DNA from: Lachnospiraceae bacterium
GTDB taxonomy: Bacteria > Bacillota > Clostridia > Lachnospirales > Lachnospiraceae
Direction of reading: 5' to 3'
DNA length: 53,344 nucleotides
Assembly (NCBI GenBank): GCA_024696005.1
Contig: JAILHF010000040.1
Location: 1-53,344, forward strand
This document shows positions 8,938 to 35,096 of this stretch, one piece after another. The first letter of the stretch is position 1. Each line of letters begins with the position of its first letter. The translations under genes and the position numbers were made by a program. The notes below the pieces were generated by a model. That model was given only the letters and a program-made list of their open reading frames with translations. It searched no databases and had not been told where the DNA came from.

Positions 8938-8988
8938 GGCAGACGGAATCTGATCGCTGCACTCTATCCCCAAGCCGATTGTTACCAG

Positions 8989-9203
8989 CAGGCAGAATAT
9001 AGGACGTGGCCGCCTATGGAGGAGCTTAGCCACTCCCGAAACTGCATGAAAAATCAGAAATGCGAAGCCCGGATGGCTGAGCAAGGGAAACATGAGGCAT
9101 GGATGCCGAATGTCGACCGGTTTCGTGCGGATTGAATAATGTTTGGGCAGTTTCGCAGAGTGGCTTAGCGACGGAATCGAGCGCCACGGACTATTTCTGC
9201 CTG
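8989..9203. repeat. 215-bp structured dispersed element, copy 1
   Basis: Very similar (roughly 90 percent or more by eye) to 34848-35061. The ends CAGGCAG and CTGCCTG pair, continued by ATAG/CTAT, a GA/GA internal mismatch and CGTGG/CCACG. Further in, AGCCACTC (9028-9035) pairs with GAGTGGCT (9158-9165), flanked by CGAAACTGC/GCAGTTTCG. Invariant small hairpins lie between (AGCCcggatGGCT and GGCATggATGCC). It fills most of the 329-bp gap between GH127 and the next gene and ends 63 nt before that gene's start. No credible protein is encoded. A structured RNA or a miniature mobile element is the likeliest explanation. Confidence 0.8.
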
Positions 9204-9229
9204 CAGAACGACAAGAAATATGGTAAAAT
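9201..9229 (+). promoter_or_regulatory. Possible promoter of the glycosidase-like gene
   Basis: TAAAAT at 9224-9229 is a fair -10 box; the hexamer 17 bp upstream (CTGCAG, 9201-9206) is a poor -35 and overlaps the end of the repeat element. If real, the dispersed element would supply part of the promoter. Confidence 0.3.
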
Positions 9230-9266: not shown

Positions 9267-11003
9267 ATGGGGCATTTCCGGAATTTTAAGACGGTCGTAT
9301 ATATCCCGGCATGGACTGCCATGGGATTGACGAAGGAAAAACTGGATTACGATTTTGCGTATCTGGAAAAATACATCGGCCTGGACAAGGTCTATCTGGA
9401 AACCCACCGGGATGAGAAGGATGTGGACAGGGAACAGATCCTGATGATCCGGGACTTCCTGGAGCAGAAGGGTGTGGAGGTGTCCGGCGGGATCACGACG
9501 ACCATTGACGATTTTGAAGGAACCGAAGCCGGAAAACAGAGGCTTTTCAATACCTTCTGCTATACCGATCCCGCGATGCGGCAAAGGCTGCGGGAGATCT
9601 CGGAATACGCGGCCGGACTCTTCGATGAGGTGATCCTCGATGATTTTTATTTCACCAATTGCAGCTGTGAGCGCTGCATCCGGGAAAAAGGCGATCAGGA
9701 CTGGGTGAGTTTCCGCAAAAAACTCATGACGGATGTATCCGAAAACCTGATCGTGGGGCCTGCCAGAGCGGTGAACCCGAAGGTGAAGATGATCATCAAG
9801 TATCCGAACTGGCGCGAATCCTATCATTTTACGGGTTATCTTCCCGGAGAGCAGGGCAGGATCTTTGACGGGACCTATACGGGTACCGAGACCAGAAGCC
9901 CGGCTTACACCGACCAGCATCTGCCGGAATATCTGAGCTACAGCCTGATGCGCTACATGGACAACGCCTGGCCCGGACGCAACGGCGGCGGCTGGTTTGA
10001 TACATACCAGTGCTGGTCGATCGACCGTTATCTGGAGCAGGCTTATCTGACCGCTTTTTCCGGTGCGAAGGAGCTGATGCATTTTCAGTGGAGCGATCTG
10101 ATCGACAATCCGTTCACGGCTCCCATGGGCCTGATGCTTTCCAGGATCGACCGCCTGTTGGAAGGGATTGGCAGCCCGACGGGCGTTCCTGTCTGCATTC
10201 CCCACGAATCCTGCGGTGAAAACCATCTGGAGATGCGCTTCGGCATGGTCGGAGCCGCGATGGACCCCACGCCGCATTTTGATCCGGATGCTAAAAAGAT
10301 ATTCCTGACCGAAAGCGCCTGCGCGGACAGCGGGATCGTCTCCAAGCTGGAGGCGTTTGTCCGGAAAGGCGGCGATGCGGTGATCACGAGCGGCTTTTTG
10401 CGCAGGGCCGGAGACGAGCTGCGAAAGGCAGGCCTGACCCAGGCATGGCTTACGGGCAGCAGCATCGCTGTGACGCGTTACCAGGTGACCGGGGATTACA
10501 GCGGATATGAGGAACATGAAAAGGCCGTTCTCTTCCCCGAGATCTGTCACGGCAACAACAACGAGTGGTCTCTGCTGAACGGGGGAGACGGGGATTTCCA
10601 CGCGTCCCTTCTGCTGCGCTGCAGTTACGGAAAAGGGAGGCTGTATGTCATGGCTGTTCCCGAAAACCAGGCCGGACTCTATGATATCCCGCCGGCCGCT
10701 CTCGATGTTTACAAGCGCATCCTCTCTGACGGGATCTATGCGACAGGCAGGGGATTTTCGATGTTTACCTATGATGACGGCAGCCTGATCCTCTACCGTT
10801 ACGTAAAAGGCAATCTGCGTCCGGAACGTGTCACGATCCACACGGGCACGGAGGTGAGTGCCCTCAGGGATGTTTCTTCCGGCCGCCGTTTCGAGCCGGT
10901 CGAAGAAGTCGCATGGGAGGATTTTGAACGTCGGAAAGCGCATGCTTATACCCTGCTTTTGGAGCCGGGACGATTCGTGCGCCTGAAGTGCGAAAAAGAG
11001 TAG
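9267..11003 (+). CDS. Putative TIM-barrel glycoside hydrolase-like protein of unassigned family
   Basis: 578 residues from ATG 9267, with AAGGAGGG six bases upstream. I do not recognise a named family. The first 350 residues read like a TIM barrel: VYIPAWTAMG, VILDDFYFTNCSCERC (a candidate catalytic acidic pair plus a CxxC) and ELMHFQWSDL. From about residue 350 there is a Rossmann-like part (SKLEAFVRKGGDAVITSGF) like the trimerisation domain of GH42-type enzymes, then a small beta domain. No signal peptide. Its place after GH127 suggests it acts on the same arabinose-containing glycans. It could equally be a non-catalytic relative. Confidence 0.5.
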   Translation: MGHFRNFKTVVYIPAWTAMGLTKEKLDYDFAYLEKYIGLDKVYLETHRDEKDVDREQILMIRDFLEQKGVEVSGGITTTIDDFEGTEAGKQRLFNTFCYTDPAMRQRLREISEYAAGLFDEVILDDFYFTNCSCERCIREKGDQDWVSFRKKLMTDVSENLIVGPARAVNPKVKMIIKYPNWRESYHFTGYLPGEQGRIFDGTYTGTETRSPAYTDQHLPEYLSYSLMRYMDNAWPGRNGGGWFDTYQCWSIDRYLEQAYLTAFSGAKELMHFQWSDLIDNPFTAPMGLMLSRIDRLLEGIGSPTGVPVCIPHESCGENHLEMRFGMVGAAMDPTPHFDPDAKKIFLTESACADSGIVSKLEAFVRKGGDAVITSGFLRRAGDELRKAGLTQAWLTGSSIAVTRYQVTGDYSGYEEHEKAVLFPEICHGNNNEWSLLNGGDGDFHASLLLRCSYGKGRLYVMAVPENQAGLYDIPPAALDVYKRILSDGIYATGRGFSMFTYDDGSLILYRYVKGNLRPERVTIHTGTEVSALRDVSSGRRFEPVEEVAWEDFERRKAHAYTLLLEPGRFVRLKCEKE

Positions 11004-33523: not shown

Positions 33524-34861
33524 ATGGAACTATGGGATCTGTATGACAGGGAAGGAAAGCGCACCGGGGAGACCTGGGAGCGCAAGCCGGGAAACTATGA
33601 GAAGATACCGGAGGGACGATATCATCTGGTAAGCGACATACTGATCCGGCACAAAGACGGGACCTATCTGCTCACAAAGAGGCATCCGGGAAAGGACGTC
33701 TATCCGGGCTTCTGGGAAGCCAGCGCGGGAGGCTCCGCCCTGGCGGGAGAAGAGCCGCTGCAGGCGGCAAAGCGGGAGATGTTTGAAGAGACGGGGCTTG
33801 TGTCCGATGACTTTACGCTCGTGAATGTGAGCTTCCGGGAACCCAGCCATAGCATGTTTTATTCCTATCTGGCCGTAGTGGATGCAGACAAGGATTCGGT
33901 CAGGCTTCAGGAAGGGGAGACGACCGAGTACCGATGGGTGGACAAGGCCGGGCTTCTGGAATACGCGGATTCCCCCGAGGCGATGAAGAATCACAATGCC
34001 AGATACCGGAAGATCTTCGATCTCTTCCGGACACTTTATGTGACGGATCTCGACGGTACCCTGATGCGTGGTGACAAGAGCATATCCGAAAACAGTGTGG
34101 CGACCATCAACAGACTGATCGAGATGGGGATGAACTTTACCGTGGCCACGGCCCGTTCGCTCTACAGCGTATTGCAGATCGTCAGGCCCTTCCATCTTGA
34201 AGTGCCGATGATCGTCCGGAACGGAACGGCGCTTGCCGATCCGCGCCGCATGGAGATCATGGAAAAAGCGCTCTTTACGGAGGCGGAAAAAGAAAAGCTG
34301 AAGGAGCTGCTGAAGGAGCTGCCGCAGTGCGGCTTTGTCAGCATCTGGCACGGCGGCGAAATGGAAAAGCGCTTTTGGAAGGGCGCTCACTGCGAGGGGA
34401 TCGAAAAATACCTTGAAGATCACGCAGACGGCAAAGGGATAGTCTTTGCGGAGGATCCCGGGGAACTGTTTGACGGCGAAGCGGGTTATGTAACGATGAT
34501 CGACCGGAAGGAAAAGCTCGATCCGATCTTCGAGAGGATCAGGGAAGCCGGCGGATGGGAGACCGTTTTGCAGAAGGACGCATACGGGGAGGAATACTGG
34601 CTGGAAGTCTGCCCCGAAAACAGCACCAAGGCGAAAGCGATCCTTGCGCTGAAGAAAAGGCTTCGTTGTGAGCGTGTAGTCGTATTCGGGGATTCCGTCA
34701 ATGACATCCCGATGTTTCGGATCGCGGATGAGGCGTATGCGGTGGAAAACGCGATCCCGGAACTCAAGGAATGCGCAACGGCAGTCATCGGCTCCAATGA
34801 GGAAGACGGTGTGGCAGAGTGCCTTGCGCGTACGATTGAGATACCAACAGGCAGGATATAG
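33524..34861 (+). CDS. NUDIX hydrolase fused to a Cof-type HAD phosphatase
   Basis: 445 residues. Residues 1-165 hold a NUDIX box (GGSALAGEEPLQAAKREMFE then ETG, matching GX5EX7REUXEEXGU). Residues about 180-440 are a HAD domain: VTDLDGTLMRG, VATARSLYS, a C2-type cap and VVFGDSVNDIPMF. The protein may hydrolyse a nucleoside diphosphate derivative and then dephosphorylate the product, an inference from the fusion. The last codons and the TAG stop lie inside the dispersed element at 34848-35061, so its natural C-terminus may have been altered by that element. Confidence 0.85.
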   Translation: MELWDLYDREGKRTGETWERKPGNYEKIPEGRYHLVSDILIRHKDGTYLLTKRHPGKDVYPGFWEASAGGSALAGEEPLQAAKREMFEETGLVSDDFTLVNVSFREPSHSMFYSYLAVVDADKDSVRLQEGETTEYRWVDKAGLLEYADSPEAMKNHNARYRKIFDLFRTLYVTDLDGTLMRGDKSISENSVATINRLIEMGMNFTVATARSLYSVLQIVRPFHLEVPMIVRNGTALADPRRMEIMEKALFTEAEKEKLKELLKELPQCGFVSIWHGGEMEKRFWKGAHCEGIEKYLEDHADGKGIVFAEDPGELFDGEAGYVTMIDRKEKLDPIFERIREAGGWETVLQKDAYGEEYWLEVCPENSTKAKAILALKKRLRCERVVVFGDSVNDIPMFRIADEAYAVENAIPELKECATAVIGSNEEDGVAECLARTIEIPTGRI

Positions 34862-35061
34862 GACGTGGCAGCCTATGGAGGAGCTTAGCCACTCTCGAAA
34901 CTGCATGAAAAATCAGGAACGCGAAGCCCGGATGGCTGAGCGAGGGAAACATGAGGCATGGATGCCGAATGTCGACCGGTTTCGTGCGGTTTGAATATGT
35001 AGAGGCAGTTTCGCAGAGTGGCTTAGCGACGGAATCGAGCTCCACGGACTATATCTGCCTG
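34848..35061. repeat. 214-bp structured dispersed element, copy 2
   Basis: Second copy of the element at 8989-9203. Ends CAGGCAG/CTGCCTG, ATATAG/CTATAT (better paired than in copy 1), tandem GA/GA mismatch, CGTGG/CCACG, and the inner stem AGCCACTCT/AGAGTGGCT plus CGAAACTGC/GCAGTTTCG. Differences from copy 1 are few and cluster in loops and at the stretch before the second inner-stem arm. It supplies the stop codon of the NUDIX-HAD gene and ends 63 nt before aroA. No flanking target duplication is clear. Confidence 0.8.
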
Positions 35062-35096
35062 TAGGGAGAAAAAATGGTATCCGCCGGAAAGGAGAA

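Follow-up and report, generated by a model that had tools for sequence, protein, structure and literature searches.

The window analysed here, 53,344 nucleotides of a contig of a Lachnospiraceae bacterium, carries a repeat at positions 8989-9203 and again, on the same strand, at 34848-35061. The two copies are 94% identical over 215 bases, which bears out the initial annotation in its description of two near-identical units in the same orientation. Copy 1 lies between genes for a GH127 enzyme and for a protein without a family match, and copy 2 between those for a NUDIX-HAD protein (upstream) and EPSP synthase; gene context here and below rests on a home-made gene caller based on codon scores. 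The flanking genes are codirectional at both copies, as had been stated, but copy 2 is not confined to a gap, since it overlaps the preceding reading frame: ORF 33524-34861 encodes a fusion of NUDIX and HAD-hydrolase domains, the last residues and stop codon of which lie inside the repeat. For the 578-amino-acid product of a gene at 9267-11003 of the window, tblastn gave matches in 14 genomes of the genus, and neither Pfam nor NCBIfam yielded one at E 0.001.

Folding reproduced the layout first proposed from the sequence, namely an outer stem, a GA/GA mismatch, an inner stem and two apical hairpins (Table 1). Copy 1 folds at -93.6 kcal/mol (z -6.96) and copy 2 at -98.0 kcal/mol (z -6.89), with none of 200 dinucleotide shuffles as low in either case. 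The original 215-bp limits proved too short, as alignment to complete elements of a relative (genome G011, described below) extends beyond them in both copies (Table 1); the local alignments of copy 2 are to elements L161 (220/250 identical, 34823-35083) and L162 (221/252, 34834-35093). No direct repeats can be recognised at the window copies, which retain only remnants of the inverted ends.

Table 1. Features of the two repeat copies in the window.
Feature	Position	Strand	Basis and remarks
Copy 1, stretch homologous to complete G011 MITE-like element	8959..9208	+	Local alignment to L161, 217/248 identical; outer inverted ends eroded
Copy 1, outer stem, left arm	8989..9011	+	Fold, end alignment; outside Rfam model, limits approximate
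Copy 1, TwoAYGGAY core (RF01731)	9015..9179	+	88.3 bits, cut-off 43
Copy 1, GGA of apical hairpin 1	9071..9073	+	Sequence, Rfam alignment; context CCCGGATGG, A of AYGGAY missing
Copy 1, GGA of apical hairpin 2	9101..9103	+	Sequence, Rfam alignment; context CATGGATG; 27 nt between GGAs
Copy 1, outer stem, right arm	9181..9203	+	Fold, end alignment; outside Rfam model, limits approximate
Copy 2, stretch homologous to complete G011 elements	34823..35093	+	Local alignments; ends uncertain
Stop codon of upstream NUDIX-HAD gene, in copy 2 left arm	34859..34861	+	ORF 33524-34861
Copy 2, TwoAYGGAY core (RF01731)	34874..35037	+	87.9 bits
Copy 2, GGA of apical hairpin 1	34930..34932	+	Sequence
Copy 2, GGA of apical hairpin 2	34960..34962	+	Sequence; 27 nt between GGAs

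The initial annotation knew of no named family with this layout and proposed a search with Rfam covariance models. That search did return a named family: the copies score 88.3 and 87.9 bits against TwoAYGGAY (RF01731), published in 2010 (PMC2864571, seen in excerpt), and both therefore belong to it at its gathering score of at least 43 bits. Both matches are full-length (model positions 1-168) and include the two hairpins; in the window type, hairpin 2 has the AYGGAY terminal loop (CATGGATG) and hairpin 1 (CCCGGATGG) is one base short of it. In its passages, PMC2864571 describes TwoAYGGAY as probably an RNA, with human gut, gamma-Proteobacteria and Clostridiales as its sources, and the motif figures there as an RNA candidate and not as a mobile element. 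Its helix was later lengthened through covariation analysis (PMC7657543; PMC11701678; excerpts), and in 2014 it was put forward as a CsrA-binding sRNA with two matches to the CsrA site (PMC4333381, excerpt). The copies described here reach past the Rfam model, through the outer stem and, in G011, through transposon ends.

The repeat had been described as present twice and, while both window copies are real, the genome from which the window derives (G000; 3.75 Mb, 99.94% complete) contains 24 TwoAYGGAY copies over the cut-off. By eye, 11 of these are of the window type (type A), 11 belong to a longer type B with a further outer stem, and two are neither. None of the 24 is contained in a predicted gene, although one overlaps the predicted start of a gene and copy 2 overlaps a stop codon. 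Two B-type copies (L051 and L052) stand at the starts of contigs C21 and C12, both of which begin inside such a copy; in each, another repeat (CCCTCCCTACGGTCGGC...GCGTAATGGCGCC, strand shown) breaks the second hairpin on its 3' side. Across the genus, copy numbers range from 1 to 24 in 26 of 35 genomes, including G000, and the other nine show no match at E 0.001; an order-wide sample gave a match in 8 of 146 genomes, seven of them over the cut-off. Seven stretches were found in a scan of named genomes, four of them in a single MAG ('Lachnospiraceae bacterium isolate Tb.RUG.225'), with matches also labelled Acidobacteria, Desulfobacterales and Clostridiales. Plasmid and phage collections yielded no match, and viral contigs no core pattern. 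For comparison we assembled 121 copies, made up of 97 of the 200 genus matches and 24 of the 44 matches from five other genera (copies of G069 and G132 being left out). The nearest neighbour on a FastTree tree sat in the same genome for 77 of the 121 (mean 8 and maximum 18 in 500 shuffles), from which it follows that the copies multiply within genomes.

In G011, three copies (L160-L162) aligned with the window-type ends run on outward until they reach inverted ends near GTTACTGTTCAG, with CCTTAGCCG coming next. The complete MITE-like elements of this genome are 293-294 bases long with a window-type TwoAYGGAY as core, and the terminal inverted repeats of L160-L162 show one or two mismatches. 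Exact 8-bp direct repeats (TTTTTATC and TTTTTTTG) flank L160 and L161; the right-hand repeat of L161 lies 10 bases past the aligned end, beyond a duplicate of the end sequence, and the repeats are exact if the right end takes in this short second copy. L162 has an imperfect T-rich direct repeat only. A relic in G000 that consists of the ends alone (L200) carries CTTTGGAT on both sides, again an exact 8-bp repeat, so that target-site duplications of the length noted are exact in L160, L161 and L200. The same ends-only relic with the same flanks is found in two species, as L233 on contig C124 of G011 and as L200 on contig C45 of G000, and at least one insertion therefore predates the species split. 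A scan of all 121 copies for exact 8-bp repeats beside inverted ends gave three matches (L160, L161 and L130), the one at L130 being probably due to chance.

Ends near GTTACTGTTCAG also bound a 147-bp repeat family of G000, the interior of which is unrelated to TwoAYGGAY. Among its five copies with both ends recognised, the 8-bp repeats are exact in two, carry one mismatch in two and are absent from one; MITE-like members include L204, L205, L211 and L213 (contigs C13, C18, C63 and C73). The end pattern, with up to three mismatches allowed, occurs 28 times in G000 and not at all in the reversed control, and the end GTTACTGTTCAGNCC is found exactly in only 3 of the 35 genomes. Three derivatives (L045, L046 and L047) keep both arms and have lost the middle, and are the usual debris of MITE-like elements. 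The scan of the 121 copies showed other ends and no clear direct repeats for the B-type copies and for the dimers of G014 and G020, the mobility of which rests on copy number and, for the dimers, on sharp boundaries. Inverted pairs of copies are present in G012, G014, G017, G020 and G028, two of those in G020 being one 679-bp unit (97.6% identity) with sharp ends. The units L120-L123 (G014, G020) are composites of two divergent TwoAYGGAY copies in inverted arrangement; they are bounded by inverted ends AAATTCATGTTTATCGA and lack a clear target duplication.

Because the G011 copies have inverted ends and 8-bp repeats, because copies cluster by genome and some have lost their middle, and because copy number runs from 0 to 24 within one genus, we regard it as highly probable that the window repeats are copies of a MITE-like non-autonomous DNA transposon. 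An 8-bp duplication is, we assume, suggestive of a DDE-type enzyme acting in trans. Searches of the window's genome, the genus and viral contigs found the ends shared with another small repeat family, and found neither an autonomous element with the same ends nor any transposase-bearing element with them; no transposase was seen near such ends among the families listed (25 of 73, matched by 59 reading frames). A single viral end match had no second end within 14 kb and looks like chance. Imperfect palindromes in intergenic gaps, and the inverted pairs of the five genomes named above, would also suit a REP/REPIN-like palindrome moved by a Y1 (IS200-like or RAYT) transposase. A match to this enzyme is present in 15 of the 35 genus genomes; G000 with its 24 copies (99.94% complete) and G002 with 17 (99%) have none, so that the Y1 transposase that defines a REP/RAYT system was not found in the window's genome and mobilisation by this route is disfavoured. 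Y1 transposition is not known to make a target duplication, and the 8-bp duplications observed here further reduce this reading to a very improbable one.

The genes downstream of L161 and L162 in G011 have counterparts in the window's genome (78% and 74% identity) with no TwoAYGGAY alongside; at the L161 locus the comparison covers only 170 bases upstream, and the left flank matches another contig. For the gene that follows copy 1, 12 of the 14 relative loci comprise ten without the element, one with it (G002) and one (L104) that is too short upstream. The G002 copy lies directly upstream of the ortholog in the same orientation and belongs to another subfamily: L103 (2393-2559) is 59% identical to window positions 9015-9179. 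A hot spot, a role in cis, or a shared site whose copies were homogenised genome by genome could each account for this coincidence. At the EPSP synthase loci of relatives, 0 of 18 had a match over the cut-off. The pairing of L027 with the G002 copy as an orthologous site was rejected, as the distance from the end of the shared gene to the core is about 640 bases in one case and about 90 in the other. The intergenic DNA of relatives is too divergent for empty sites to be resolved to the base.

The downstream gene is codirectional for 10 of the 11 window-type copies and for 5 of the 11 type B copies (5 to 6, no preference). A preference for certain targets, for example T-runs, or a function in leaders may lie behind the bias of the window type; taken with the G002 copy at the same ortholog, this non-random orientation counts against mobility of the window type and would suit a role in cis or a hot spot. 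Both observations would be at home with a stationary regulatory RNA, whether a CsrA-sequestering sRNA or a cis leader, that became multicopy by duplication, in keeping with the 2014 proposal of PMC4333381. The resemblance of the loops to the CsrA site and the presence of csrA in all eight TwoAYGGAY-positive genomes of the order sample point the same way. We nevertheless consider a stationary RNA improbable, given the inverted ends with 8-bp direct repeats, the range of 0-24 copies within a genus and their clustering by genome, the B-type copies that show no orientation preference, the absence of a csrA association within the genus (see below), and flanking genes that are common mainly to close species (as judged from flanks of 350-1000 bases only).

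The core of the element is conserved as a structure. Of the 121 cores, 52 were less than 80% identical, and 45 of these made up the covariation alignment, on which RNAalifold predicted 27 pairs, 26 of them with compensatory changes. A 45-pair structure taken from the Rfam alignment, in which pairs over 60% paired were kept, has 85.2% of its cells pairing and two-sided change in 41 of the 45 pairs, so that the covariation among homologues which the initial annotation had named as a check was indeed found. The covariation score was 0.576, against 0.184 for shuffled and at most 0.152 for slid alignments, and was reached by 0 of 500 shuffles, pair selection on the same alignment inflating it somewhat. 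Double changes in the helices amount to 469 cells. On the plus strand, G-U cells exceed A-C cells by 97 to 38 (63 to 38 minus two G-U-rich columns), the cells not being independent; this excess appears to favour a folded plus strand, although the figures are not decisive between DNA and RNA. G-U pairs make up 97 of 1681 standard pairs and are absent from pairs 58-75, 59-74 and 60-73; at 5.8% their share seems low for RNA.

These figures bear on the possibility that the palindrome acts at the level of DNA only, as a hairpin or cruciform needed for transposition, or through arms that correct each other, any RNA being incidental. Such a role is compatible with the transposon reading, and the inverted ends and mobility, the many double changes, the scarcity of G-U pairs and the persistence of GGA loops without csrA (16 of 18 copies in csrA-negative genomes have GGA in both loops) all speak for it. 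The surplus of G-U over A-C, on the other hand, is what folding of a plus-strand RNA would be expected to leave, and arm pairing does not account for the conservation of the loops. We give a purely DNA-level role serious weight, though rather less than an even chance, and think it likely that the repeat is a mobile element whose structured core serves some function. The initial annotation had offered a functional structured RNA or a miniature element; strong covariation and the MITE-like units of G011 support its two halves respectively, the RNA function being putative.

The loops themselves resemble the site of the regulator CsrA, for which the review PMC7652899 gives RUACARGGAUGU as the SELEX consensus and ANGGAN as a hexaloop, and reports that sites separated by 10-63 nt can be bridged. 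In a strict recount of hairpins, 100 of the 121 copies have GGA in both apical loops, with a spacing of 25-28 nt in all 100, which falls inside that bridging range. Hairpin 1 of the window type has the GGA and lacks the A of ANGGAN. Most of the copies that fall short belong to a subfamily of 12 copies from G007, G025, G033 and G034, in which the hairpin 1 loop is without GGA, and 10 of the 12 are in csrA-positive genomes (csrA being present in three of the four). The first loop of these copies (L136-L146) reads ACACGATG and the second keeps CATGGATG. Hairpin 2 reads CANGGANG in 72 of the 77 copies that come from csrA-positive genomes of the genus and in 11 of 18 from csrA-negative ones (p 0.0013, copies not independent), in neither of the two copies of G032, and in 15 of 24 copies from five other genera, all of which have csrA. 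The contrast within the genus fits relaxed selection without CsrA, and the figure from the csrA-positive other genera argues against reading much into it.

G000, from which the window derives, carries a single csrA. Of the 26 genus genomes with the motif 21 have csrA (one of the 21, G032, as a 20-residue match only), as do 8 of the 9 without, and hence there is no association between TwoAYGGAY and csrA among the 35 genomes. In the order sample it is present in 8 of 8 TwoAYGGAY-positive genomes against 98 of 146 overall (p 0.037, Fisher 0.053). Two genomes, G012 (11 copies, 100% complete) and G017 (9 copies, 99%), are without csrA yet carry closely similar copies. Together with G028, which also has no csrA match, they group on both gene trees and show GGA in both loops in 16 of the 16 copies seen; G032 joins these three on the EPSP synthase tree, not on the other. 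The distribution of csrA is thus equivocal, and binding of the core by CsrA, printed in 2014 (PMC4333381, excerpt), is a good but unproven idea that we hold only tentatively.

We conclude that the repeat is a known RNA family which here most probably forms the core of a non-autonomous transposon. The family was already known; its recognition as a transposon core appears to be new, a name-based literature search of partly accessible texts (most subscription papers and the 2010 supplement lying outside it) having returned no such reading of TwoAYGGAY. Searches combining CsrA with MITEs gave nothing on point in the passages retrieved (the Rfam 12.0 paper concerns other matters), and one for an RNA motif, MITE and Lachnospiraceae found no paper. 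Like bacterial MITEs, the elements are short, non-coding, intergenic and multicopy, with inverted ends, 8-bp duplications, deletion derivatives and ends common to another repeat family of the genome; unlike them, they have an interior that is conserved, covaries and occurs also in subfamilies with other ends. With the CsrA-sequestering RNAs CsrB/CsrC and RsmX/Y/Z they share ANGGAN-like GGA motifs in hairpin loops at a spacing suited to a CsrA dimer, but they differ in offering no more than two sites each, in being dispersed in many copies, in having some hosts without csrA, and in a hairpin 1 that deviates in several subfamilies, the window's included. IStrons, which join a group I intron to an IS (PMC4227781), are likewise structured RNAs riding on a DNA transposon, whereas the present elements have no Rfam-recognised intron and no transposase gene.

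We propose that the window repeats are ageing copies of this MITE-like transposon, with TwoAYGGAY as the conserved core, which would be moved in trans by a transposase of the kind that makes 8-bp duplications. With less certainty, the core, read in the plus direction within a neighbouring transcript, may fold and expose at most two GGA loops, which a CsrA dimer could bridge over their distance of about 27 nt. Transposition would then scatter binding sites for CsrA; any one of them could serve as a CsrA-responsive leader or trailer, and all of them together as a CsrA sink. That a DNA transposon with a selected structured-RNA payload rewires the CsrA network in this way, placing new genes under control and adding sponge with every copy, is a doubtful proposition.

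TwoAYGGAY has been a candidate RNA without an assigned function since 2010, and its patchy occurrence in many copies would be accounted for by a role as the core of a mobile element. The ends and target duplications described here make two points open to direct test, the identity of the transposase that moves it and its binding by CsrA. Should CsrA bind, a transposon would be distributing the sites of a global RNA-binding regulator.
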